Virus record (IMG/VR): IMGVR_UViG_3300021091_000001
Span: 62,001 to 126,000 of that record
Reading direction: 5' to 3' (one strand)
DNA: 64,000 nt
From: a virus
Of this stretch, positions 1,315 to 15,217 are shown piece after piece. The notes beneath the pieces are model-generated. The model was given only the letters and a program-made list of their open reading frames with translations, made no database searches and was not told where the DNA came from. The number at the start of each line of letters is the position of its first letter. Position 1 is the stretch's first letter. The translations under genes were made by a program, and so were the position numbers.

Positions 1315-1391
<77 letters not shown>

Positions 1392-3011: not shown

Positions 3012-3686
3012 ATGCCCTCCTATTCTGACAATGATGATGATCTTTTTGAAGAATCCACAAATTCTTCGACCGATTCATCTTCATTTCATGATTTATTTGC
3101 TCACTCCAATTACTCTTCTGATACTTTTTCTAATTCTTTTGTAGAATCCACAAAAGATATACTTTCACCCAAGTCTATTGACTCTGATCAATTTCGTTAT
3201 CGTACCGGTATCGTTACTTCTTTCTATGAAGTTTGCAATCGGTTTTCGTTCGCAAATGATAATTTTTTAAGAGTTGAGTATGATTATCTCAACTCTATTT
3301 CTAACAATCATTTTAGCAAATTGCTTTATTTTGCTTTCTTAGAAGAAAGTATTATCAAACGCTTTTCTATTCAGAACTTTTTACGTGTTGTTATTGAAAC
3401 TGATAATAGCAAAGTATTTAAAGAAGCAGCAGAGCAACTTAAAATAAATGTCGATGACTTTTTTATTAGAGTTTATTTTGGTTCTATTTATAAACTTCTT
3501 AATCACGCAATAGACCGAAATATTGCTATATATGAAAAGCTTTGTACAGAACTTCAGAGACCACCAATGCAAGCTATTCTTGATAAGAATTATGATTCAC
3601 TAGATATTACTTTTGAATCACCTTCTTCTTATATTTTGAGAAGCTTTGATTCTATTAAAGAGTCTCTTGGTTTTAAAACTTTCTAG
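3012..3686 (+). CDS. helical protein at head of ubiquitin-like module
   Basis: 224 residues. Residues 1-60 are Ser/Asp/Asn-rich, acidic and probably disordered; the rest is helix-rich and aromatic. No enzyme motif is seen. It is the first gene of the continuous rightward block carrying the E2-like, JAMM, E1 and Ubl genes. Prokaryotic E2-family-D neighbourhoods are described as including a rapidly diverging alpha-helical protein; this gene could be that component, but only by position. Confidence 0.6.
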   Translation: MPSYSDNDDDLFEESTNSSTDSSSFHDLFAHSNYSSDTFSNSFVESTKDILSPKSIDSDQFRYRTGIVTSFYEVCNRFSFANDNFLRVEYDYLNSISNNHFSKLLYFAFLEESIIKRFSIQNFLRVVIETDNSKVFKEAAEQLKINVDDFFIRVYFGSIYKLLNHAIDRNIAIYEKLCTELQRPPMQAILDKNYDSLDITFESPSSYILRSFDSIKESLGFKTF

Positions 3687-3698
3687 GAGGAGATATAA

Positions 3699-4094
3699 TT
3701 GTATCCTGAAAAGATTCCCAATTCTTTGACACCTTTGAATACTTTCAAGTTCAACTTGGAATCTTCACGTGATGTTAAAAAACAACTAGAGTCTCAAATC
3801 GCAAGTCTCGATGAACGTATTGAAAAGATCGTTGATCATTTTACAATCCAAGACATGCCGATTATACGTTTTATTCTTAATGTTTCTGAAGAACGTGAAG
3901 AACTTAAAAAAGTTTCTAGGGCATTGGATAGAATAGCAGATCTTATTCACGTTAAAAATGAACTACTTCCAAAACTAGAGGTAATCAAAATAGCGGAAAA
4001 AGATCCCAATTGGTTTGCATGGACTTTTGGTGATTTTGATTCTGATATTGATTCTGAATTACAAAACTTTACGGACGGAAATTTTGATGACTGA
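3699..4094 (+). CDS. coiled-coil protein
   Basis: 131 residues started at TTG 3699, justified by a very strong AGGAGGAG sequence 7 nt upstream. Residues 20-105 are a long charged helix with heptad character, followed by an acidic tail. It overlaps the next start by 8 nt (ATGACTGA). Function unknown; the position suggests a partner of the E2-like protein downstream. Confidence 0.6.
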   Translation: MYPEKIPNSLTPLNTFKFNLESSRDVKKQLESQIASLDERIEKIVDHFTIQDMPIIRFILNVSEEREELKKVSRALDRIADLIHVKNELLPKLEVIKIAEKDPNWFAWTFGDFDSDIDSELQNFTDGNFDD

Positions 4095-5907
4095 TAATTT
4101 TAATTATACTCTTCTTTCTAAAGAAGACGGCACTTATGCTCTTCGGTCTGTTGTAACTTCTTTTGGCCTTGACCATGTGACTGACAAAGATATTGTATCT
4201 TTTTATACTACTTTTTCTCAATATGCTTCTTTTGACACTGGTCTTTTGCCTTTAGATGGTACTGGCATTCTTGCCATTCGCAATGCTGGTCCACATACTC
4301 AAGTTGTTGCTCAACATGCTCCTGGATTGTATTATATAAATTGGGGTAGTTTTGAAGGCGACAAGCAAGCTAAGGCATACTATGTCGCTCAACCTTATCG
4401 CATAATTATTGGCGACTTTAGAGATGGTAATCTTTTAGGCGCTAGAATGTTTTATTCTCCTGTGCCAATCACCTCTCCTCAAAATCAGCTCTATCATGTT
4501 AACCTTCCCAATATTAATTGCAAAGGTTATCGCGGCAATGCTGTAGGCTGGATTTGTCTTTATCATAAAGATGATTGGTCTCATCTTCCATTTAACGAAA
4601 AAGTATCACGTTTCATTGAACGTTGTTCTGGCGTAGAAACATACAACGATGCAAATATGAACGAGACAGATGGTCCTCGTTTCTATGATTCTTGCGGATA
4701 TCCTTCTTATATTACTGATCCCGTTCTTTGGCAAAAGAAGTCAGAGGAAGAGGGATATCAATGGACTTTAGATTCTTCTGTTTGGATTCCAGTAAAAGTT
4801 ACTGGAATTGATAATCAGGGTTGCCATAATCCCAAAGGTGAATTACTCACTTTGGGAATGGCTATCTTGGGAAACTATCAAGCTTATTATACAGATACTG
4901 AAATCCCCAAGATGTACAATATTGTTTCTCGTCTTGATTTTACTGTTAAGAACGACAACATAGCTGACTTCTTTAAAAAGTCATTTGCTTCTGCTCCCTC
5001 TATTTGGTCTCACACCCCTAAAGATAATCCTTATGCTTTCACTGTAGAATCTAGAATCAATAATTCTTCAGAAACCCTTCAGTTGAATTTTAATTCTGAT
5101 GAAGAAGATCCCCATAAGGCTGTTTGCAATAATTGTGATGAGGTCTTTGACTATGAAGTAGCTACTATCGATGCGTACGATGAAACTATTTGTCCTAGTT
5201 GCATTAATGATCGTTATGTATACGTAGAATCTGTAGGTAAATATTTTCATTGTGAAGATGAAGATCTTTATTATTCAGAACATGATGATAACTACTACCA
5301 TTCTAAGCACGATGTTTGTTTTCATTGTCCAAATTGTATGGTCACTTATGGTTATTCAGGTACCAGTGAAAAAGCCGTTGAGTATATTCACAATTTAACT
5401 CGTAAAGACAATTATTCTGAATTAATTTGCGCAGTTTGTTTTGATCGAAATATTGAAGAAAATGATCTTTCTTCTACTGAATGTGTTGTATGTAAGAAGA
5501 AAGTTATTACATCTGTTGGATGGAATGATGTTCATCCTACTGTAAGAACCATTGATCATGATGTAGATTCAAATACTTATACTTCTACTTATTCTACATT
5601 TTGTGAAAGTTGTTCTCCTAAGCACTTTGTTTGTCCTTGCGGAAAAGTTAAGTCAGACGATACTGAAGATTTTAATTCTTGTAGTTCCAGTATGATTTAT
5701 TCTGAGTTAGATGCTAATAATAAACTTGTTTTTACGGCTTCTGTTCATCAGTGCTGTGCAAGTTGTCTTTCAGCGCCTATTCTCCAAGATGGAGAACTAG
5801 TAGCTGCTTATGTCCCACCTCCAGAAGTATTTAAGCTTGTCGTCAATAATAAATTGTTTAATTCTACTGGAATTACTGTTATTCAGTCAGAAGATGGTTT
5901 ATTCTGA
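4087..5907 (+). CDS. E2-like (Prok-E2_D / PRTRC protein B-like) protein with Cys-rich tail
   Basis: 606 residues from ATG 4087, which overlaps the previous stop; an upstream in-frame ATG at 4015 would read through the earlier gene. Residues about 100-190 follow the layout of bacterial E2-like PRTRC-B proteins: a hydrophobic strand (YRIIIGDF), a second strand (RMFYSPV), then VNLPNI and a cysteine, C157, in VGWICLYHKDDW. C157 is the candidate thioester site. The C-terminal half (about 345-570) has repeated CxxC pairs (CNNC, CPSC, CPNC, CVVC, CESC, CPCG) that probably bind several zinc ions. An E3-like role for the tail is only a guess. Two further E2-like genes lie at 12813 and 13991. Confidence 0.6.
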   Translation: MTDNFNYTLLSKEDGTYALRSVVTSFGLDHVTDKDIVSFYTTFSQYASFDTGLLPLDGTGILAIRNAGPHTQVVAQHAPGLYYINWGSFEGDKQAKAYYVAQPYRIIIGDFRDGNLLGARMFYSPVPITSPQNQLYHVNLPNINCKGYRGNAVGWICLYHKDDWSHLPFNEKVSRFIERCSGVETYNDANMNETDGPRFYDSCGYPSYITDPVLWQKKSEEEGYQWTLDSSVWIPVKVTGIDNQGCHNPKGELLTLGMAILGNYQAYYTDTEIPKMYNIVSRLDFTVKNDNIADFFKKSFASAPSIWSHTPKDNPYAFTVESRINNSSETLQLNFNSDEEDPHKAVCNNCDEVFDYEVATIDAYDETICPSCINDRYVYVESVGKYFHCEDEDLYYSEHDDNYYHSKHDVCFHCPNCMVTYGYSGTSEKAVEYIHNLTRKDNYSELICAVCFDRNIEENDLSSTECVVCKKKVITSVGWNDVHPTVRTIDHDVDSNTYTSTYSTFCESCSPKHFVCPCGKVKSDDTEDFNSCSSSMIYSELDANNKLVFTASVHQCCASCLSAPILQDGELVAAYVPPPEVFKLVVNNKLFNSTGITVIQSEDGLF

Positions 5908-5930
5908 ATCAACAAAATATTGGAGATTTT

Positions 5931-7625
5931 ATGACTAATCAACAAGAAACAACAAACGTCACCTTAAATGACCTTAATTATTTTTGGACTAAGTCTGGAG
6001 TTCCATGTTTTATGGCAACTCGAGACGATATTCAAGATGTAGTTCAGGCTCTTGGTTTTAATATTTATTATCTTATTTGCAATGTTGCGGAAGATAAAAA
6101 GAATGAAACCACAACTTATGTCAATGGTAAGAGTCAAACAACTACTTCTTATGTCACTAATATGAAGACCAAAATTGTCAAGGTTGTAAACAACTTTGTT
6201 GGTCATTCAATTACTGTTGTAGAAGATGAAGAAATTTATGATTTTACTCCAATACGTGAAATAGGCGAATATAATCTTCCTCCTATTCCTCGCGATATAG
6301 TTACTAAGCTCGATGAGTTCTTTAGACTTGTCGACGCACAGCATGGCACAGAGTCAATTGTCATATTGACCTTTGATCCTAATTTTGAAGATTCCCGTGG
6401 TTGGGGTGTTCTTGTTCCAGAACAGACAAATACTTCTGTTCACTGCAAGTACGACCCAGATAGCATTGTTGATCAAAAACCTGAGCATGTGATGATTGTT
6501 GGATCTGTTCACAGTCATCCCGGCATGCCTGCTTATGCATCTGGTACAGACCATGCTGATCAAGCAGATTTTGATGGCATTCATATTACTTATGGATGGC
6601 AGAAGTCTATTAATAACAATGCAACTCAATATCATATTGAGCTTCAAATGGCTGGATATTCTTGGACTCTTAAGCCAGATGATGTTTTTGAATCATTTGT
6701 TTACAATAAATCTCCCGATCCTCAGGTCGTAGAATGGAGCGAAAAAGTAAAAAAAGCATACCCCCCTCAGGGGGGTTCGGTTTCTCTAGTGGCTCACACA
6801 CCAGCACATTCGCTACATCAGACTCCTCCTCGGGACTTTATTCCAACTGGTATTACTAGTCCTTTATCAAAAGGAACTTCCACTTGGGAATCTACCAATT
6901 CTCCTCGTGTTTCTCAGTTTAATTCTCGTACTCAGAATTATCCTAACCCTCATGATGACGATGACCATATTGTCATAGCAGAAGTTCAAATTGAATCAGG
7001 CGGTTTTGCTTCATGTCCTTCTTGTAATTCTGAAGTGGCTTATTTTATTAATACTGTTCCATTTTACTGCGACGTTTGTGATATGCCTCTTTGTTTTCCT
7101 AATAACGCATATTCTGAGATAATTTCTTCTGCTGAAGAATATCTTAAAGAACGTAATCTTAAATCTAACTGCAATTATTATATTTGGACTAAAGATGATA
7201 ATGATGCAGATTTGTTAATGCGCATTAAAGAAAAAAATTACGTATCTGATTCTTCTGATTACATATCTTTAGACGCTCGTGTCGAAACTCTTGATGAATA
7301 TTATTACGAAGGTTTTTCTCACGAAAGATTAGTTTGTTGTGATCTTCCTATTGAAGAAATTTCTTATTGTACATGTTCTACTCCTGTTTATTATGATGAC
7401 GTCATTTCTTTTGATGTTGCTCATCCCCATAGTGTTTACGATTCAAACGATTCTTGTATAGAATGTGAATTCTATTACTCTAGGAATTGTAAGCCTTATC
7501 TACAAGCCATTGTAGATTTTGCGGCACGTGATCGTGTTATGGACGCTAAAATAACTGAGTGTGAGGACTTTATTCCGTATGAACGTTCTGCTGTCAAATA
7601 CGACTTCGACCGAGATTATTATTAA
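5931..7625 (+). CDS. JAMM/MPN (Prok-JAB) metallopeptidase with Zn-ribbon-like C-terminus
   Basis: 564 residues. A complete JAMM metal motif is present: H194-S-H196, then seven residues, S204, two residues, D207, as in deubiquitinases and bacterial JAB peptidases of Ubl operons. It would remove or process the Ubl at its C-terminal Gly. The N-terminal ~130 residues are unassigned. After about residue 275 a Pro/Ser-rich linker leads to a C-terminal half with CPSC, CDVC and CCDLP/CTC cysteine groups, probably zinc-binding. A GC hairpin and an A7 run lie at 6749-6775, exactly at the domain boundary. The E1 gene starts 20 nt downstream. Confidence 0.88.
   Translation: MTNQQETTNVTLNDLNYFWTKSGVPCFMATRDDIQDVVQALGFNIYYLICNVAEDKKNETTTYVNGKSQTTTSYVTNMKTKIVKVVNNFVGHSITVVEDEEIYDFTPIREIGEYNLPPIPRDIVTKLDEFFRLVDAQHGTESIVILTFDPNFEDSRGWGVLVPEQTNTSVHCKYDPDSIVDQKPEHVMIVGSVHSHPGMPAYASGTDHADQADFDGIHITYGWQKSINNNATQYHIELQMAGYSWTLKPDDVFESFVYNKSPDPQVVEWSEKVKKAYPPQGGSVSLVAHTPAHSLHQTPPRDFIPTGITSPLSKGTSTWESTNSPRVSQFNSRTQNYPNPHDDDDHIVIAEVQIESGGFASCPSCNSEVAYFINTVPFYCDVCDMPLCFPNNAYSEIISSAEEYLKERNLKSNCNYYIWTKDDNDADLLMRIKEKNYVSDSSDYISLDARVETLDEYYYEGFSHERLVCCDLPIEEISYCTCSTPVYYDDVISFDVAHPHSVYDSNDSCIECEFYYSRNCKPYLQAIVDFAARDRVMDAKITECEDFIPYERSAVKYDFDRDYY
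6749..6775 (+). promoter_or_regulatory. candidate -1 ribosomal frameshift signal
   Basis: Zero-frame codons GTA AAA AAA form the slippery heptamer A-AAA-AAA (6749-6755). After a 5-nt spacer comes a 6-bp all-GC hairpin, CCCCCC TCA GGGGGG (6761-6775). A -1 shift gives a 36-codon tail ending at TAG 6857-6859, so the JAMM domain would be released without the Cys-rich half. It is not proven to act. Confidence 0.45.
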
Positions 7626-7645
7626 GACAAAATATAGGAACTGTT

Positions 7646-8392
7646 ATGGAAACTAAAAGAGTTGTATTGGTTGGAGCCGGAGGCATAGGCACTTGGCTTG
7701 CTCCTGGTGTTGTTCGTTTACTTGAGTGGAAGTATCCTGGTTCTGCTTTTATTATCGTCGATGGTGACAATTTTGAGCAGAAAAATTTAGAGCGTCAGTC
7801 TTTTACACAAATGGGAAACAAGGCTTCTGTTAAAGCATTAGAACTTTCTTCTCAGTTTACAAATACTCTTGTTATTCCAGTCCCTAAATGGGTTGTTTCT
7901 GACGATCATCCAGAGACAGATGATAATTCTAACAAGATCAAAGCTTCTCAACTTCTTGTTGAAGGAGATATTGTTCTTGCTGTTGTTGACAATTTTTCTG
8001 CACGTAAAATTCTTTTTGACGCTGCATCTAAATTAGACAACGTTGATGTTTTAACTGGTGGAAATGATGACGCTTTATATGGAAGTATTTATCATTACCG
8101 TCGTAGAAATGGTATAGACATTACTTCTCATCCAGTTGAAACACACCCAGAATACCAGAATCCGCCGGATCGTAATCCCGGTGAGATGTCTTGTCAGGAG
8201 CGAGCAGAAATAGAAGGTGGCACTCAGATTCTTGCCACTAATATGGCTGTTGCTTCTTATATTCTTGGTCGAATACAACACACTATAGTGTTCGACCAAA
8301 ATCCAGAACAGTCCGAGATTTATTTTGATCTAGGGCTTGGCATGGCACAACCCTACAACCGTATGGTTGAAAACGCATCACTTAATGTATAG
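7646..8392 (+). CDS. E1-like ThiF/MoeB-family Ubl-activating enzyme
   Basis: 248 residues, the size of PRTRC-type ThiF proteins. The nucleotide-binding loop VGAGGIG (9-15) is followed by VDGDNFEQKNLERQ (38-51), matching the family D-x-D...N-L-x-R-Q signature with D39, D41, N47 and R50, and then by Lys59. C183 in EMSCQE is a candidate thioester cysteine. The enzyme would adenylate the C-terminal Gly of the Ubl encoded 12 nt downstream. It lies between the JAMM and Ubl genes, the classic arrangement for bacterial ubiquitin-like systems. Confidence 0.9.
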   Translation: METKRVVLVGAGGIGTWLAPGVVRLLEWKYPGSAFIIVDGDNFEQKNLERQSFTQMGNKASVKALELSSQFTNTLVIPVPKWVVSDDHPETDDNSNKIKASQLLVEGDIVLAVVDNFSARKILFDAASKLDNVDVLTGGNDDALYGSIYHYRRRNGIDITSHPVETHPEYQNPPDRNPGEMSCQERAEIEGGTQILATNMAVASYILGRIQHTIVFDQNPEQSEIYFDLGLGMAQPYNRMVENASLNV

Positions 8393-8403
8393 GAGAAATC
8401 AAA

Positions 8404-8655
8404 ATGGAAATGAATTCCATGCAGAACAATACAAATGCAGCACAGGGCGTAGCTAATCTTCGCTATGGTGTTTACAACCAGCCAGCTCCAGTTTCTGGCA
8501 AGACTGTTGGCGAAGTTCGTCAGCAGTTCTCCAAGCTTTGGGGAATCAGCGCAGACGCCATTGCCTACAAGGGCAAAGACAAGCTTGACGAAAATTATAT
8601 CATTCAGCCCGGCGATAACGTTGAATTCCATCGCCGTGCTGGTGAAAAGGGCTGA
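8404..8655 (+). CDS. ubiquitin-like protein (PRTRC protein C-like)
   Basis: 83 residues. AGGAG lies 8 nt before the ATG. The pattern fits a beta-grasp fold: strand LRYGVYN, a helix with TVGEVRQQFSKLWGI, then strands ending in NVEFHRRAGEKG. The C-terminus resembles that of PRTRC system protein C, which ends in a short Arg/Gly-containing tail with a terminal Gly. Ending directly in Gly means no peptidase maturation would be needed before E1 adenylation. It is followed by a striking structured RNA or terminator at 8671. Confidence 0.82.
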   Translation: MEMNSMQNNTNAAQGVANLRYGVYNQPAPVSGKTVGEVRQQFSKLWGISADAIAYKGKDKLDENYIIQPGDNVEFHRRAGEKG

Positions 8656-8670
8656 TTAAGCTCTACATTC

Positions 8671-8764
8671 GTGGGGGGGGATTTCGGCTTAAATGCCGTT
8701 CAATCTAACATTATAGATGATTTTAATCTGAAAAATGTTAGAATGGTCCCCCCCCACTTTTTTT
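8671..8764 (+). terminator. three-way-junction RNA / intrinsic terminator after the Ubl gene
   Basis: An 11-bp outer helix pairs 8671-8681 (GTGGGGGGGGA) with 8747-8757 and is followed by seven Ts. Inside are CGGC 8685-8688 with GCCG 8695-8698, and a 9-bp helix 8704-8712 with 8734-8742 that holds a smaller AGAT/ATCT stem. The G8 and C8 runs stand out in this AT-rich genome. It could terminate after the Ubl gene, attenuate the AAA gene or act as a stable RNA. Confidence 0.65.
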
Positions 8765-8804
8765 ATAAAGCCTACAGTTAGTTACTTTATATGAAGAGGA
8801 CTTT

Positions 8805-10406
8805 ATGCTCCACCAACAAATCCAACTTGGTATTCCTGCCATATGGATTAAAACTACAGACCCTTTCCGTATAGAAGAAAATATTTTATCTATTTCAAAA
8901 AGAGATTTTTTTTCTATAACAAAGGATGGTTTTTCACATTATTCTGATAATGTTTGGAAACCCATTCTAGTATCTATTTCTAACCCTGAAGATTCTTCTT
9001 CTCCAATAATTAAAACGACCACAGATTTTTCTGTGTCTTTTGATTTTCTTTTTAATTCTCCTGACTTTAAAGATCGTCCAAAAACGTTTATTAACCACCT
9101 AGTTAGTGATCCAAATTCTTTTGCAATGATGTTTGCTCCTTTTATTGCAAATCTTCATTCTGATTATCGCAATTCTTTTAAAAAAGACGATCTTTCTTTA
9201 CTTCCTCTTCAAATAATTGTCATATCTTCTGCCAATCCTCCAGAAGACATTGCTCATCTTTTCTATGTTCACGAAGATACTTATCCTTCTTTGGAAGAAC
9301 TTACTGATATTCTCTATCATATGCATTCTTCTACAAATGGAGAAATAGTAGATTCTGCCAAAACAAAAGATATAGCTCGTTCTGGTCTTGGTTTAACAGA
9401 GTCTAAGTTTATTAACTTGTCTTTGCTTTCTGTTTTAGAATGCGGAACTATCGATTCTGCTTACATTTATTCTGCTAAAATGGCAGATGTCAAAAAGAAT
9501 GGCATTCTTGAAATTCTTAAGCCTAAAATAACATTTGATAATATTGGCGGTCTTGATAACATTAAGAATGTTATTTTTAAAAATCTTTATTTTTGGAATA
9601 ATCCCCAAGAAGCTGAAAAATTTGGTATTCAACCAATAAGACGTTTGCTTACCGTTGGTATTCCTGGCACTGGTAAGTCTGCCATTTGCGAAGCAACTGC
9701 AAATGCTTTAGGTCTAGATCTCGCTCGCACTGGTGTCAGTCAAGTAATGAATTCTTTCATTGGCCAGTCAGAAGCTAATATGCGAGCAGTTTTTCAGCAG
9801 ATAAAAGCAATGGCTCCACTTTGCGTTTGGATTGACGAGTTCGGTCGTGATATGTCTGGTGGCCAGTCGTCTAGTCACGTAGACGGTGGCACCACAGACC
9901 GTGTTCACGGCGAGTTCTTGACAGGCTTGCAGGAACTTCCTGACAATGTCTTTTTGATGTGTGCTGCAAATCAACTCAATCACCTTAGGCCAGAGATGCT
10001 TCGCGCAGAACGCTTTGATAAGATTTTCTTTGTTGGTTTGCCTTCATTTGAAGAGCGAATTGAAATTATCAAAATTTATCTTCCGGAAAATAATTATGAT
10101 TATCAAGCCGTTGCTCATGCTACCAAGTATTTTACTGGTGCAGAAATTAAATCTCTTATCAAAGAAGTGAACTTTAATGTAGTATCTACTTATCATCGCT
10201 CTGTTACTGATAAGGATATTATTTCTTACGCTCCTAGCATAAGGAATATTCTTTGGAATAAAGAACGCGACATGATTAAAGAGTTATATCGCTACGCCTA
10301 TGAGAACTGGGATTGGGCTTCTAATTTCCAATACAATGAAATAGATGATATACTTGGTAAAGCTCCAGCAAAGTCACAAGTTTCGTCTTGGGACGTAAAG
10401 ATATAA
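8805..10406 (+). CDS. Ycf46-like AAA+ ATPase
   Basis: 533 residues. The N-terminal half follows the Ycf46 plan: IPAIWIKTTDPFRIEE near residue 14 and LQIIVISSANPPEDI near 137, before a TYPSLEELTDIL helix. The C-terminal AAA+ domain has Walker A GIPGTGKS (285-292), Walker B CVWIDEF (340-346) and a downstream sensor region with CAANQ. No membrane segment or HbYX tail is seen. In this setting it could unfold Ubl-marked proteins or remodel conjugation complexes; that is inference. Ycf46 proteins themselves have poorly known roles. Confidence 0.82.
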   Translation: MLHQQIQLGIPAIWIKTTDPFRIEENILSISKRDFFSITKDGFSHYSDNVWKPILVSISNPEDSSSPIIKTTTDFSVSFDFLFNSPDFKDRPKTFINHLVSDPNSFAMMFAPFIANLHSDYRNSFKKDDLSLLPLQIIVISSANPPEDIAHLFYVHEDTYPSLEELTDILYHMHSSTNGEIVDSAKTKDIARSGLGLTESKFINLSLLSVLECGTIDSAYIYSAKMADVKKNGILEILKPKITFDNIGGLDNIKNVIFKNLYFWNNPQEAEKFGIQPIRRLLTVGIPGTGKSAICEATANALGLDLARTGVSQVMNSFIGQSEANMRAVFQQIKAMAPLCVWIDEFGRDMSGGQSSSHVDGGTTDRVHGEFLTGLQELPDNVFLMCAANQLNHLRPEMLRAERFDKIFFVGLPSFEERIEIIKIYLPENNYDYQAVAHATKYFTGAEIKSLIKEVNFNVVSTYHRSVTDKDIISYAPSIRNILWNKERDMIKELYRYAYENWDWASNFQYNEIDDILGKAPAKSQVSSWDVKI

Positions 10407-10415
10407 AGGAATATT

Positions 10416-11033
10416 ATGTCTATTGAAGAAAATGTCGAAGAATTTCTCTCTACTTTAGAACCAGATCAGCAAGACGATAAGCCAAAGTATGCAAATACTC
10501 TTTATAAGAAATGGTTTAAGTCTAAGACTCAAAGTGGTTTTGTTTCTATTCGTCCTTGGTTTCAAGGAATGAAATTTTCTATTGATATTGGAAAAACCAA
10601 TTCATCAGGAAAACTAGAAAGTAACACAAACTGTTTTGTTGATGCAATAGATTTTGCCGCTTATCTTCGTAGTATTGTTACAAACACAGCTTCTTTTAAT
10701 TTTCCCGTAAATGAAAGAATGGGATTAACAACTCCTGAATCTTTTGTTTCTTATGGTGGAACCACTTTACAATCTGGTCAGCAAATCAGCAGAATTTTTA
10801 AATGCCAACACTGGCAAAGTGGTGATAATGTAGATTCTTCTGCTTTTATTTGGAAAGCTGGCCATTTTAAAGCTAGGAAATCAGATACTGGAGCTTTCAT
10901 TCCTGATATGAAATCACCATTGTCTGTAGATTCGATTAAAGTTACTCGTCAAGATATTGTTAGTATTTCATATCTTTTGGATATGTCTTTGATTTCTTAT
11001 GTAACTAATAACACAGAATGGTATGATGCCTAG
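10416..11033 (+). CDS. unknown beta-rich protein of the Ubl module
   Basis: 205 residues. The N-terminus is acidic and helical; the core looks beta-rich (VSIRPWFQGMKFSIDIG, then FAAYLRSI). No motif is recognised. It starts 10 nt after the AAA+ gene and its TAG overlaps the next GTG start, so it is translated with the module. Confidence 0.6.
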   Translation: MSIEENVEEFLSTLEPDQQDDKPKYANTLYKKWFKSKTQSGFVSIRPWFQGMKFSIDIGKTNSSGKLESNTNCFVDAIDFAAYLRSIVTNTASFNFPVNERMGLTTPESFVSYGGTTLQSGQQISRIFKCQHWQSGDNVDSSAFIWKAGHFKARKSDTGAFIPDMKSPLSVDSIKVTRQDIVSISYLLDMSLISYVTNNTEWYDA

Positions 11034-11416
11034 TGGAAGAAAACATATTTGATTCAGCTGATACTTTTGATTCTTTAAAGAATAATCTTCATGAACTTGT
11101 TATTGCTTTAGCTTCTAGAGTTGAAGAACGTCTGCAAGATTTGGATGAAGCAATTCAAAAGCTTGAAAAACAGATTGCTACTCTTATTCTTGGTTTTGGA
11201 GAACAAGCTGTTAATATGGAAGGACTTCTTGCCCAGATTAAATTCTCCAGTCCTGAAGCCCAAAAAGAGTTCATGAATACTATTTCTGCTAGTAGAAAAC
11301 AAATGCTTGAGACAATGAAGGAAGGCGCCAGTGGTTTATTGGCTGGAGAAAGTCCAGGAATTGCCTCAGCCGTTGAAGACTTGGTTAACGAAAAGTTATC
11401 TGACTCAGCCGATTAA
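11033..11416 (+). CDS. coiled-coil protein
   Basis: 127 residues from a GTG overlapping the previous stop. Residues 12-60 form a heptad-like helix (RVEERLQDLDEAIQKLEKQI), with a second helical segment at about 75-125. It may be an adaptor or oligomerisation subunit of the Ubl/AAA+ machinery. No catalytic motif. Confidence 0.55.
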   Translation: MEENIFDSADTFDSLKNNLHELVIALASRVEERLQDLDEAIQKLEKQIATLILGFGEQAVNMEGLLAQIKFSSPEAQKEFMNTISASRKQMLETMKEGASGLLAGESPGIASAVEDLVNEKLSDSAD

Positions 11417-11609
11417 TGGCACTTCTGTTCTTTTTGTAGACAAGCAGAATATTATTATATTGAATAATATTTATTATCTGCAAAAGATTTATTCTATTGC
11501 AAAGTTTATTTATCCAGAGATGTTATCTTTACATTTATCTTCTCTACCTATTTCTGATTCGTTAAAAAATAGGGTCATTTCTTTTGAATCTATATCTATG
11601 GAGACATAA
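11373..11609 (+). CDS. small protein, start uncertain
   Basis: The frame ending at 11609 is open from 11331. Candidate starts are GTG 11331, TTG 11361, TTG 11373 and ATT 11412; none has a clear ribosome binding site. TTG 11373 limits the overlap with the previous gene to 44 nt. The region after 11430 encodes a hydrophobic/aromatic, helical protein. The stop overlaps the next ATG. Function unknown. Confidence 0.45.
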   Translation: MKTWLTKSYLTQPINGTSVLFVDKQNIIILNNIYYLQKIYSIAKFIYPEMLSLHLSSLPISDSLKNRVISFESISMET

Positions 11610-12250
11610 TGATATCTATATCTAATTTTTCTGACACTCCATATATCACTAATCACATTAATGATATATTTGACAATATGGATGATTCTTTATATCCCCT
11701 TAATGCTTATTTTGCACATTTTTTTCGGATTAAAGATCTTAACTCACTAAAATCAGTTCTTTCTCATACTCCTAGTTCTCAGTTTACTGTAGAAACATAT
11801 AGATCATTAGAATCTAATCTTCTTTCTATCGAAAGAGAACTTGCTTATATTTATATTAAAACTACTTTTTTTGATTCAGATAGAATGTATTTTTATCTAG
11901 GTTCTAAGAATTCTTTCAAACTAAATTATTTTTCTGATTTTTTACCCAGTGCTTTTAATCATCTTTTTAATCATTGGATTCACAATAGTTTTGTTAAAGT
12001 AATGGGCCCTGGACACGGTTCTTATATAGTATTTGATCTTTCAAAGCCTTTTACTCTTCCTACTGTAGAATCATCTTCTTTTCAAGATAGTATAACTTCC
12101 TTCATAAACTCATACAACCAAATGAAAAGTGACAATCAGTATCTTACTGAATTGAATTCTTACAAAGATGGAGTTATACATTCTCTTCAGTTGAAGATTG
12201 AAGAATTACAAAATCAAAATTTTATAACATCTCAAATCACTTGGAGATAA
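11609..12250 (+). CDS. unknown protein with C-terminal coiled coil
   Basis: 213 residues, rich in Phe, Tyr and Ser. A helical tail (about 170-205) has heptad character. The ATG overlaps the previous stop, and the next gene starts 2 nt after this stop. No domain recognised. Confidence 0.55.
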   Translation: MISISNFSDTPYITNHINDIFDNMDDSLYPLNAYFAHFFRIKDLNSLKSVLSHTPSSQFTVETYRSLESNLLSIERELAYIYIKTTFFDSDRMYFYLGSKNSFKLNYFSDFLPSAFNHLFNHWIHNSFVKVMGPGHGSYIVFDLSKPFTLPTVESSSFQDSITSFINSYNQMKSDNQYLTELNSYKDGVIHSLQLKIEELQNQNFITSQITWR

Positions 12251-12251
12251 T

Positions 12252-12803
12252 ATGGATACTACTTCTTATACTGATTCTCAAGCAGCTGTTCTCGCCGCTC
12301 AGTTCCCAATTGTTTGCAAATATTATTCTAATAATATTCCTTTAAATCCTAGTTCTCATTATCAGTATGCCAACAACCCTGGCATACGTTGTTGTTCTAG
12401 TTCTCAACGTTTAGCAGTTGCTTCTCCAACAAAACCTCCTTTATTTTGTGATATGTCTCCTGTCACAATGTCTACCTGCATATTTTATTCTTCTGATTTT
12501 AAAATTCTTAAAAAGATTAAAGCTTCAAATCAGACAGTTTATTTCATGACTCGTTATAGAACTGAGCAAGAGTCTTATATTTATAAGCTTTATGGCGAAG
12601 ATGCTGTTGTGTATCTTGAGTTAAATTACTCTGATATTAAATCTATCGATGATAATATCGATACAGAAGCTATTAGAGTATTTGAAGATTTTATTGTTAA
12701 TGAACTTGGTTTTACTTTTGATCTTCAAGAAATTGATGAAGAATGTCTTGATCGCAAGCTACAAAATACAACCAATTCATTTTTTAAAGCAATTTTAACC
12801 TAG
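12252..12803 (+). CDS. unknown protein of the Ubl module
   Basis: 183 residues starting 2 nt after the previous stop, preceded by GGAGATAAT. It contains a CC pair near residue 48 but no clear metal site; the C-terminal half is acidic. Its position directly before two E2-like genes suggests a module component. Family not recognised. Confidence 0.5.
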   Translation: MDTTSYTDSQAAVLAAQFPIVCKYYSNNIPLNPSSHYQYANNPGIRCCSSSQRLAVASPTKPPLFCDMSPVTMSTCIFYSSDFKILKKIKASNQTVYFMTRYRTEQESYIYKLYGEDAVVYLELNYSDIKSIDDNIDTEAIRVFEDFIVNELGFTFDLQEIDEECLDRKLQNTTNSFFKAILT

Positions 12804-12812
12804 GATTATTTT

Positions 12813-13994
12813 ATGATCTATGACTATAATTTGTTTACTCCAGAAAATGTTTTTACCTTAACTCTTCGCGGAAATCCTCAGTTTATAGAATCATCTATGG
12901 TTGCCAAGTATACTTGTTCTATATACGACATGAAAAAAAGATATGATTCTTTGCATCCTTCCATGACACTTCGGGATCAAGACCATCTGTATCCTTTAGC
13001 TGTTAGGTATATATCTCCTATGCGAGACTTCTACGTCATAGAACGTCCTCCGTTTCTTTTGGATGAGGTAGATTTTTCTACAGCTAAATCTTACAGGCAA
13101 AGAAAAACTCCGAAACTACTCAATAATAGATCTATTTGGATTCCTTGGACTATTGCCATTATTGCCATAAGAAATGGCGTGTATTCTTTTTATCTGTTTT
13201 TCAATGATGGTCCGCTTCAATCTATAGACGATAAGATTGTTTCAGCTTATCTTCCCAACATTGGCCATGGCGGCCAAGTATGTATGGGCCAAGATTCCAG
13301 TACAGCAATGGATAAATTTCAAGAAACACTTTCTGTTACAGAAATGTATAAGTCTTTGTTTAACATGTATTTTTCTGGTTGGAACACTGACATTTGGAAT
13401 TCTAGTTACAATATCAAATATTTTGATGATAACGGTATTCTTAAGAGAATTCAGTCTCTTAAATCATCTCCTAAAGATTTTTACGAAATTTTAGTGTATG
13501 GTCGATCTAGTGTTGCTAAGTATTTTAAATCTTTTTTGTTTCTTCTTTCTCATCTTACTTTACAAGAACATTTAGATTATGTTACTCATATTAAAAACAA
13601 TTCTCATAATGTTTTCAAGTTGTCTAAAGTTATTTCTCAACAACTTCCTGGTGGTTTAATTCTAGAGGAAGTTATTGTCAGAAAAATAGACAGATCTTTT
13701 TCCAAACAACAAATTGGTTATACAAATAGTCTTTTTTCTGAACATTTTGAATCTAGTCAAGTATCTAAAAGCATAACTCTTTATGTGAATAATATCCCAT
13801 TTTTTGATGGCCAACCGCCTTTGCGATACGATAATGATAAAGTTTATTCTATGGTTAGCGATCCTAAAGCAATTGCTGAGATTTATCAGCAGATGATGGC
13901 TCAATACAAAAATTCTGATTCTTCCTTTGTTCAAAACATTCATATGAATTATTCTGATCTTCACAGCGTTGTTGTTCAAGAAGGAGCGTTATGA
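12813..13994 (+). CDS. E2-like protein (Prok-E2_D / PRTRC protein B-like)
   Basis: 393 residues. The core (about 105-200) matches the bacterial PRTRC-B/E2-D layout well: SIWIPWTIAIIAI, SFYLFFNDG, then AYLPNIGHGG followed by VCMG with candidate catalytic C157, and a helix ending SGWNTDIWN. The family has a conserved segment with a cysteine just after an N-x-x-x-G-G turn. The C-terminal 190 residues are unassigned. It overlaps the next E2-like gene by 4 nt, suggesting the two are made together and may form a complex. Confidence 0.68.
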   Translation: MIYDYNLFTPENVFTLTLRGNPQFIESSMVAKYTCSIYDMKKRYDSLHPSMTLRDQDHLYPLAVRYISPMRDFYVIERPPFLLDEVDFSTAKSYRQRKTPKLLNNRSIWIPWTIAIIAIRNGVYSFYLFFNDGPLQSIDDKIVSAYLPNIGHGGQVCMGQDSSTAMDKFQETLSVTEMYKSLFNMYFSGWNTDIWNSSYNIKYFDDNGILKRIQSLKSSPKDFYEILVYGRSSVAKYFKSFLFLLSHLTLQEHLDYVTHIKNNSHNVFKLSKVISQQLPGGLILEEVIVRKIDRSFSKQQIGYTNSLFSEHFESSQVSKSITLYVNNIPFFDGQPPLRYDNDKVYSMVSDPKAIAEIYQQMMAQYKNSDSSFVQNIHMNYSDLHSVVVQEGAL

Positions 13995-15217
13995 TAACCC
14001 CATCTACTTACATTTTTGCTGACGATATCTCTTATCCATATGCAGAACTAACTACTGGCAATACAAATCTACAATACTCTTATGCTAATACTCAACGTTC
14101 TGAAGCTTCTAGGTTCATGAATTTAAAGTTAAGTAGCAATTATTCTATCAAAGAATCTACAATTTCTTATGAAAACGATTCTTACATTGATATATTTGAC
14201 GACTATCTTTCCATACTCAATACAGAGAACCAATATAATGACTTGATATTTCCTGGTTTAAGATACGCTTCTGAGGGAATATTAATCTTTGAAAGACCTC
14301 CTACTTACAAAGTTTTAGACATTAGTAGAGACTATCAGGCGAACATAAATTCTCATACTTTGCAATCGGAATATTATTTGCCAATTCCTTGGCAGGTATA
14401 CATTGCAATGTACAATCCTGCAACCATGCGACTAGTTGCAGTAAAAATGTTTTTTACATCTACTTCATTGTTTGATTTTAATCAAGCTGTTTTTGCTCCT
14501 CCTTTGTATAATTTTTATTCTAACGGAATGTTATGTAGACCATTCTTTGAGTCTATAGACGATATTGAGAAATATCCTAAAACATATTCTGGCGTTATTG
14601 CTTCTGCTTACGATTGGATCTGGAACAGTGGTTTCAACTTTGATATTACTGAAAATATTTCTCAATTTCTTCAAAGCAAAAATTTCTATTCTTTTGAACC
14701 ATATTTGACAAGCGCTTCTGCTAAAGCTTCTTACCATCTACTTGTTAATAATCCCATTCATGCAATTCTCAACAGATTAGATTTTATCTATGCTAAGAAT
14801 TTCTACAATTGTTGGCAGAATATAGCTCTTAAAGATATTTCTTCTGTTTCTTGGTCACCATATACATATTCGGATTTTTATTATCAAGAGCGAGATACTA
14901 TTTCTGACTATGCACTAGATATTTATTTGGATCAAACAGGAAACTCTTATTGTTCCTGTGACTGTGAGAGTTGTTTAGAATACTCGCAATGTTGTACTGA
15001 CGAAGATAATCTTCATCTTTCGGATATACATCATGACCCTTTATACATTAAAATTGTTGACAATTTAGTGAATAAAGATCCTAAACCTCTTCAAAAAGCT
15101 TATAAAGATTCTGTTTTGTTTTTAGCAAAAAACAAGATTTCTATGAAAAGTGCTTTTAAATCTAAGTCTTATGAAGTTTTTGCTAAAATGTCTGAAAAAA
15201 TACAGATTACTTCTTGA
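13991..15217 (+). CDS. E2-like protein, divergent paralogue with Cys cluster
   Basis: 408 residues. It has the same order of elements as its neighbour: LPIPWQVYIAM, LVAVKMFF, APPLYNFYSNG, then C182 in GMLCRP and a helix ending in DWIWNSGF. Alignment by eye makes it a paralogue or distant relative of the gene at 12813. A cysteine cluster (CSCDCESC...CC, about 317-332) suggests a bound metal. It is the last gene of the module; a candidate operator follows at 15225. An inactive E2-variant-like subunit is one possibility. Confidence 0.58.
   Translation: MITPSTYIFADDISYPYAELTTGNTNLQYSYANTQRSEASRFMNLKLSSNYSIKESTISYENDSYIDIFDDYLSILNTENQYNDLIFPGLRYASEGILIFERPPTYKVLDISRDYQANINSHTLQSEYYLPIPWQVYIAMYNPATMRLVAVKMFFTSTSLFDFNQAVFAPPLYNFYSNGMLCRPFFESIDDIEKYPKTYSGVIASAYDWIWNSGFNFDITENISQFLQSKNFYSFEPYLTSASAKASYHLLVNNPIHAILNRLDFIYAKNFYNCWQNIALKDISSVSWSPYTYSDFYYQERDTISDYALDIYLDQTGNSYCSCDCESCLEYSQCCTDEDNLHLSDIHHDPLYIKIVDNLVNKDPKPLQKAYKDSVLFLAKNKISMKSAFKSKSYEVFAKMSEKIQITS

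Follow-up and report, generated by a model that had tools for sequence, protein, structure and literature searches.

Here, we describe a single rightward block of genes at positions 3012–15217 of a 64,000-nucleotide stretch of viral DNA (the window; positions 62,001–126,000 of the 202,043-bp IMG/VR record IMGVR_UViG_3300021091_000001), which, judged from its sequence, is probably a phage-borne ubiquitin-like conjugation and deconjugation cassette of the bacterial E1–E2–Ub–JAB type. The block holds genes for a ubiquitin-like protein (Ubl), an E1-like enzyme, a JAMM protease and E2-like proteins, as the original prediction had claimed, and every open reading frame (ORF) named there lies where it had been placed. 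The suggestion that the module is encoded by a phage also holds: because the genome carries a terminase, a DnaE-type DNA polymerase, a DnaB-like helicase, a primase and a ribonucleotide reductase, the setting is a genuine tailed phage, one without a close cultured relative. The core genes are as follows.

4087–5907, plus strand: E2c, with a putative E2_D-like domain at about residues 40–200 (LPNINCKGYRGNxVGWIC157LY) and a C-terminal CxxC array
5931–7625, plus strand: JAMM/JAB metalloprotease with a C-terminal Cys-rich region; Pfam Prok-JAB 2.2e-6, above cut-off
7646–8392, plus strand: E1-like ThiF-fold Ubl-activating enzyme, predicted catalytic C183 (NPGExSCQER); Pfam ThiF 3.8e-11, above cut-off
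8404–8655, plus strand: Ubl, 83 residues, C-terminus EFHRRAGEKG; recognised by hhalign to Ub genes of sister cassettes
12813–13994, plus strand: E2a, Prok-E2_D (E2_D) homologue, predicted catalytic C157 (PNxxxGGxVCMGQD); Pfam Prok-E2_D 0.0065, sub-threshold
13991–15217, plus strand: E2b, paralogue of E2a, which it overlaps by 4 bases; predicted catalytic C182 (NFYSNGxLCRPFF)

Parts of the cassette and their conservation

The Ubl ends in EFHR[RK]xGEKG in all 27 distinct copies, and in 3/27 of them two extra residues follow the GEKG (NI, LA or SK), giving these a precursor-like appearance. Its profile matches the Ub genes of sister viral cassettes at 98.9% in hhalign (2.6e-17, where this and all hhalign E-values below refer to one pairwise comparison each and not to a database search), with single-domain matches to the lineages L140 (1.6e-8) and L146 (5.6e-6). 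The sister cassettes, ordered Ub–E2–JAMM–E1, form the bridge from our hhalign comparisons to known families. The invariant GEKG and the match to these Ub genes bear out the earlier claim of a Ubl ending in Gly.

The two motifs from which the E1 had been recognised, GAGGIG and NLERQ, occupy residues 10–15 and 47–51. C183 is kept in 30/30 sequences of the clade, where GxGGxG, D39, N47, R50, Q51 and D115 are likewise invariant, and C183 and the same D, N, R and Q residues are retained in 95/95 viral and plasmid E1s. A mixed-family E1 profile matches SUMO-activating UBA2, MccB, ThiF and UBA3. A tree of these 95 sequences nests the window clade within the viral E1s and places lineages L137 and L140 nearest, followed by L145 and L146; all four have the ordinary order Ub–E2–JAMM–E1.

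The JAMM motif is complete, as predicted (H194-x-H196-x7-S204-x2-D207), with all metal ligands in place, and the four motif residues H194, H196, S204 and D207 are invariant in 35/35 sequences; the protein is a putative Ubl-maturing and deconjugating peptidase. Within the gene, at window positions 6760–6776, lies a strong palindrome, ACCCCCCTGAGGGGGGT, which is terminator-like on the minus strand.

Searches of viral contigs recovered 14 loci with the E1 and 44 (on about 43 IMG/VR contigs) with E2c, several contigs being one phage assembled twice; when genome contigs were searched with E2c, the sole binned contig found belonged to a gammaproteobacterial metagenome-assembled genome (L068). The order 3012–3699–E2c–JAMM–E1–Ubl–AAA–10416–11033–...–E2a–E2b is retained on the roughly 43 contigs, up to the point where each of them ends, and the gaps among the E2c, JAMM, E1 and Ubl genes measure 11–23 nt. 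Because gene order is conserved and active-site residues are invariant, the block is not a chance arrangement. The module genes are under purifying selection: pairwise ratios of non-synonymous to synonymous substitution rates (dN/dS) are 0.03–0.26 for the Ubl, E1, JAMM, E2c, AAA and 10416 genes. One 267,766-bp record, IMGVR_UViG_3300042868_009074 (loci L041 and L048), contains the whole module twice, as complete but diverged copies separated by about 215 kb, and represents either two modules within one phage or a chimeric assembly.

Three E2-like proteins had been proposed, with differing outcomes. In hhalign comparisons with an E2_D set, E2a reaches 97.3% (1.8e-11) and E2b 97.1% (5e-11), and the two match each other at 98.9% (2.8e-17); on this sequence evidence both are firmly placed as E2_D homologues. 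E2c scores 89.9% (1.7e-6) against the same set and 74.8% against E2b, which leaves moderate support for this third member, a probable E2_D homologue. The predicted catalytic cysteines are invariant (C157 of E2a in 26/26 sequences, C182 of E2b in 25/25, C157 of E2c in 37/37, with C145 of E2c equally conserved), and a weak direct match to Prok-E2_D is found in 6/16 relatives of E2b. The conserved start of E2c is the ATG at 4087; the longest ORF opens at a TTG at 4015. Its CxxC pairs (C347/350, C369/372, C414/417, C448/451 and C466/469) resemble a zinc ribbon or a RING.

Are these proteins functional E2s, and is the Ubl their tag? Several observations weigh against such an interpretation. Pfam, PHROG and NCBIfam scans gave nothing usable on its own for the Ubl, E2b or E2c, the window Ubl has no direct Pfam match, and Pfam Prok_Ub matches 0/28 Ubl members. 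E2a and E2b evolve fast (dN/dS 0.22–0.57, the upper values coming from more distant pairs), and an E3 role for the zinc region of E2c is our inference. Sequence searches of the PDB with profiles for the Ubl, JAMM, E2_D and E2c returned no significant match. The original prediction had named predicted folds as its test, including an E2 fold for all three E2-like proteins, and for the two that were modelled the result is mixed: AlphaFold2 models of E2c and E2b (predicted local distance difference test scores of 78.7 and 69.4) have a strand meander, a Cys loop and then a helix, a modelled topology compatible with E2, whereas Foldseek found no E2 match for either in the PDB, and in BFVD uncharacterised phage proteins only. 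The lack of a PDB fold match for the two models and the sub-threshold or absent direct Pfam scores could mean that the three proteins are not functional E2s but scaffolds or unrelated Cys proteins, and that tagging proceeds directly from E1 or is absent. Given the profile–profile matches to Prok-E2_D members, in which the active-site segment is aligned, and given the invariant cysteines and the accompanying JAMM, we consider this unlikely.

A proposed tagging cycle and its alternatives

How might the parts work together? From the kinds of enzyme present we infer the chemical steps, a division of labour among the E2-like proteins and a protein as substrate. The JAMM protease would first expose the GEKG glycine in those Ubl copies that carry a tail. 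The E1, with ATP, would adenylate this glycine and then hold the Ubl as a thioester on C183, from where the Ubl may pass to the cysteine of one of the E2-like proteins: E2a (C157), E2b (C182) or, probably, E2c (C157). The E2s would attach it to a protein amine during infection, perhaps with the zinc-cysteine region of E2c in an E3-like role, and the JAMM protease could reverse the attachment. The tagged proteins might, as had been suggested, come from the host, its defences or the phage virion.

Bacterial E1–Ubl pairs commonly serve in sulfur transfer. The Ubl might be a ThiS/MoaD-like sulfur carrier that the E1 activates so that a nucleotide, a tRNA or a cofactor can be thiolated, with the JAMM protease only trimming it and the E2-like proteins not acting as conjugases. 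Consistent with this, weak Pfam matches to ThiS (0.0086) and TGS are found for the Ub of sister lineage L146, and the window E1 matches NCBIfam models of bacterial MoeB/ThiF. Nonetheless, the companions of the E1 and Ubl across the clade include a JAMM with its full set of metal ligands and two or three E2_D-like proteins, each with an invariant Cys. The E1 has an additional invariant Cys, and Pfam and NCBIfam, in the module proteins scanned, picked out no rhodanese, thiamine or molybdopterin gene. Sulfur transfer therefore seems to us quite unlikely, and conjugation to protein the better account.

Bacterial Ubl conjugation has lately come to be seen as an anti-phage defence, and Bil is one such system. 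The phage genes could serve mainly as counter-defence, the JAMM stripping host Ubl tags of the Bil or CBASS (cyclic oligonucleotide-based anti-phage signalling system) type off phage proteins, and the phage Ubl, E1 and E2s acting as decoys or competitors. The anti-phage action of Ubl conjugation systems in bacteria (PMC10097602) and the JAMM deubiquitinase-like proteins encoded by viral-like Borgs (PMC12660748) would both suit this explanation. However, a tag of the phage's own with an invariant terminus, kept together with all transfer enzymes under purifying selection, would be needless for a decoy, and we hold counter-defence as the main function to be very improbable.

The AAA+ ATPase and neighbouring genes

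The remaining features of the block are listed below.

3012–3686, plus strand: conserved gene heading the block, 224 residues, function unassigned; syntenic in most relatives, 25–52% identity
3699–4094, plus strand: conserved coiled-coil-like gene, 131 residues; syntenic, 39–67% identity
8656–8804, plus strand: terminator-like hairpin (G-run/C-run stem, then a T-run) directly 3' of the Ubl gene; minimum free energy −52.1 kcal/mol, z −5.83
8805–10406, plus strand: AAA+ ATPase (CDC48/PAN-like); Pfam AAA 2.3e-23, phrog_8638 1.5e-65; syntenic
10416–11033, plus strand: highly conserved gene after the AAA+ gene; 36–84% identity, dN/dS 0.03–0.06
11033–11416, plus strand: conserved coiled-coil-like gene; syntenic, 37–69% identity
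11609–12250, plus strand: fast-evolving gene; 27–37% identity
12252–12803, plus strand: fast-evolving gene; 32–35% identity

The protein of the first gene has no convincing family match in Pfam, PHROG or NCBIfam. Phage tRNA genes for Met, Ile-TAT, Arg-TCT and Gly-TCC, at window positions 1315–1391, 2898–2971, 17806–17878 and 23248–23321, flank the rightward block or lie near it.

The AAA+ ATPase had been counted among the module genes, a placement that needs correction. The gene is syntenic throughout the clade, but its family has an independent distribution (87 phage records, many hosts), and in those neighbourhoods inspected in other phages no recognisable Ub cassette gene stands alongside. 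It is nearly absent from other viral cassettes (1/80 of the broader viral E1 loci described below), and it is set off from the Ubl gene by a 149-nt gap that carries the hairpin, of which the G-run and C-run are conserved in 9/9 aligned lineages and the T-run in 6/9. In deep members of the clade it is found downstream of the Ubl gene, about 2.2–2.4 kb from the start of that ORF. We regard the AAA+ gene as probably a unit of its own, although, given the strict synteny throughout the clade, it may still have a functional tie to the cassette. A common phage pair of the AAA+ gene and 10416 was also considered and rejected: in Rhodobacter and Rhizobium phages, AAA is followed by a gene with no detectable relationship to 10416.

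Related cassettes and known systems

Such cassettes had been described as normally chromosomal or plasmid-borne, but they occur beyond those settings. When viral contigs were searched broadly for E1s, 80 loci were recovered. Of these, 51 hold Ub, E2_D, JAB and E1 together, and in 19 further loci E2_D and JAB stand beside the E1; a few proviruses, or plasmids filed as viruses, may be among the 80 contigs. By sequence, Ub cassettes are widespread in viruses, several cultured phages included. Salmonella phage Arash (OQ632216; L017:50–4539) encodes a Ub ending RRTGTKG (gp251c), an E2_D protein (gp248c), a JAMM (gp247c) and an E1 (gp246c). This compact cassette sits at the genome end, past the tail genes; the 'structural protein' labels on its E1 and E2 were left unused, their basis being unclear and the label broadly applied in that record. 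Acinetobacter phage ME3 (L018) carries an E1 gene and, upstream of it, a JAMM-like (PRTRC A) gene that is apparently split by an insertion around a tRNA-Met, with ME3_135 and ME3_131 as its likely halves.

In a number of these phages the Ub gene encodes tandem units. Vibrio phage D69 has three (L019:4373–5173) and viral contig L075 five (3637–4743); taken together, the precursors of D69, L075, L076, L083 and L089 consist of 2, 3 or 5 units, each ending GTKG, and adjoin E2_D–JAMM–E1. Bacillus phage KLEB27-3 (OM634661, gp199; L016:2730–3437) has four units, each ending AGVKG. Tandem GxKG Ubs of 2–5 units suggest that a peptidase cleaves after the final Gly of each unit. The KLEB27-3 units are 79–84% identical in DNA and nearly identical in protein, reminiscent of eukaryotic polyubiquitin genes, and their likeness may stem from either strong purifying selection or concerted evolution. 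A link between the window Ubl and the KLEB27-3 Ub (full-sequence E 1.8e-8) was dropped, since the four repeats inflate the score and single repeats reach about 7.5 bits. On the Alicyclobacillus and Rubrobacter plasmids L070 and L071, a Ub-like segment ending KKG is fused ahead of the JAMM domain, an in-cis fusion of tag and protease that adjoins dnaN, an E2_D-like gene and an E1.

Could large tailed phages own a widespread ubiquitin pathway, in which phage tags, some made as precursors of 2–5 units and cut by the phage JAMM, are put on proteins during infection by phage E1 and E2 enzymes? We are evenly divided on this broader proposal, under which the window clade would be an elaborated version with three E2s, one bearing a zinc-finger E3-like region. 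New here are the phage setting, the expansion throughout the clade to three E2s, one of them a zinc fusion, and the commonness of viral cassettes. The literature searched, in which coverage of paywalled papers was thin and bioRxiv lay outside the scope, yielded no description of a phage cassette; among the papers covered were a comparative survey of jumbo phages (PMC7824862) and a jumbo-phage review from 2026 (PMC13282480).

Among known systems, the bacterial E1–E2–JAB–Ub operons classified as type 6d (Iyer et al, 2006; PMC1779556) have much in common with the window. Both combine a small Ub-like protein with a conserved C-terminal Gly, a separate, adjacent JAB with HxH...S..D, an E1 with Rossmann/ThiF motifs and no rhodanese domain (here with an invariant Cys besides), and an E2-like protein with a conserved Cys (here E2a and E2b at about 97%, E2c at 89.9%). 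The window differs in that it is phage-borne, has its Ub after the E1 rather than before the E2, and encodes three E2-like proteins, one with a zinc-cysteine array, and a JAMM with a Cys-rich tail; a counterpart of the type 6d helical partner was not identified, and no profile aimed at that partner was run.

The proposed likeness to PRTRC and E2-family-D neighbourhoods holds as homology of the E1–E2–Ub–JAB type, but not as PRTRC membership. The plasmid PRTRC of Cupriavidus oxalaticus (L069) shares with the window homologous ThiF, JAB (A) and E2_D (B) proteins and a Ub (C) with (A)GxKG, which there ends AAGAKG plus a tail. In contrast, the gene order differs and scores lie far under the TIGR03735/03736 cut-offs, with PRTRC_A at 16.8 against 101.8 bits and PRTRC_ThiF at 30.9 against 144.75 bits. 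The earlier remark that ParB is not seen was correct: ParB and PRTRC E and F had no match among the ten module proteins scanned (3699, 11609 and 12252 being outside the scan). The cassette is a phage variant of the E1–E2–Ub–JAB type and not PRTRC proper.

In Arash, D69 and KLEB27-3, too, a single stretch of a large phage genome encodes a Ub ending GxKG, an E2_D protein, a JAMM and an E1. Unlike the window, these cassettes have a single E2, an upstream and often tandem Ub, and no AAA+ gene found alongside, and their E1s are only about 25–29% identical to that of the window. Because these compact cassettes occur in cultured phages, the question is open to direct laboratory testing.

Finally, the E1/E2/JAB logic is also common to CBASS Cap2/Cap3 and Bil; for CD-NTase and BilA–D, Pfam and NCBIfam scans of the module proteins gave no match, PADLOC not having been run. 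Those systems defend the host and have fused enzymes or other partners, whereas phages with a full cascade of their own would, if the proposal is true, reverse the picture of Ubl conjugation as a defence and extend ubiquitin-like tagging to viral use, perhaps in host takeover, protection or virion assembly.

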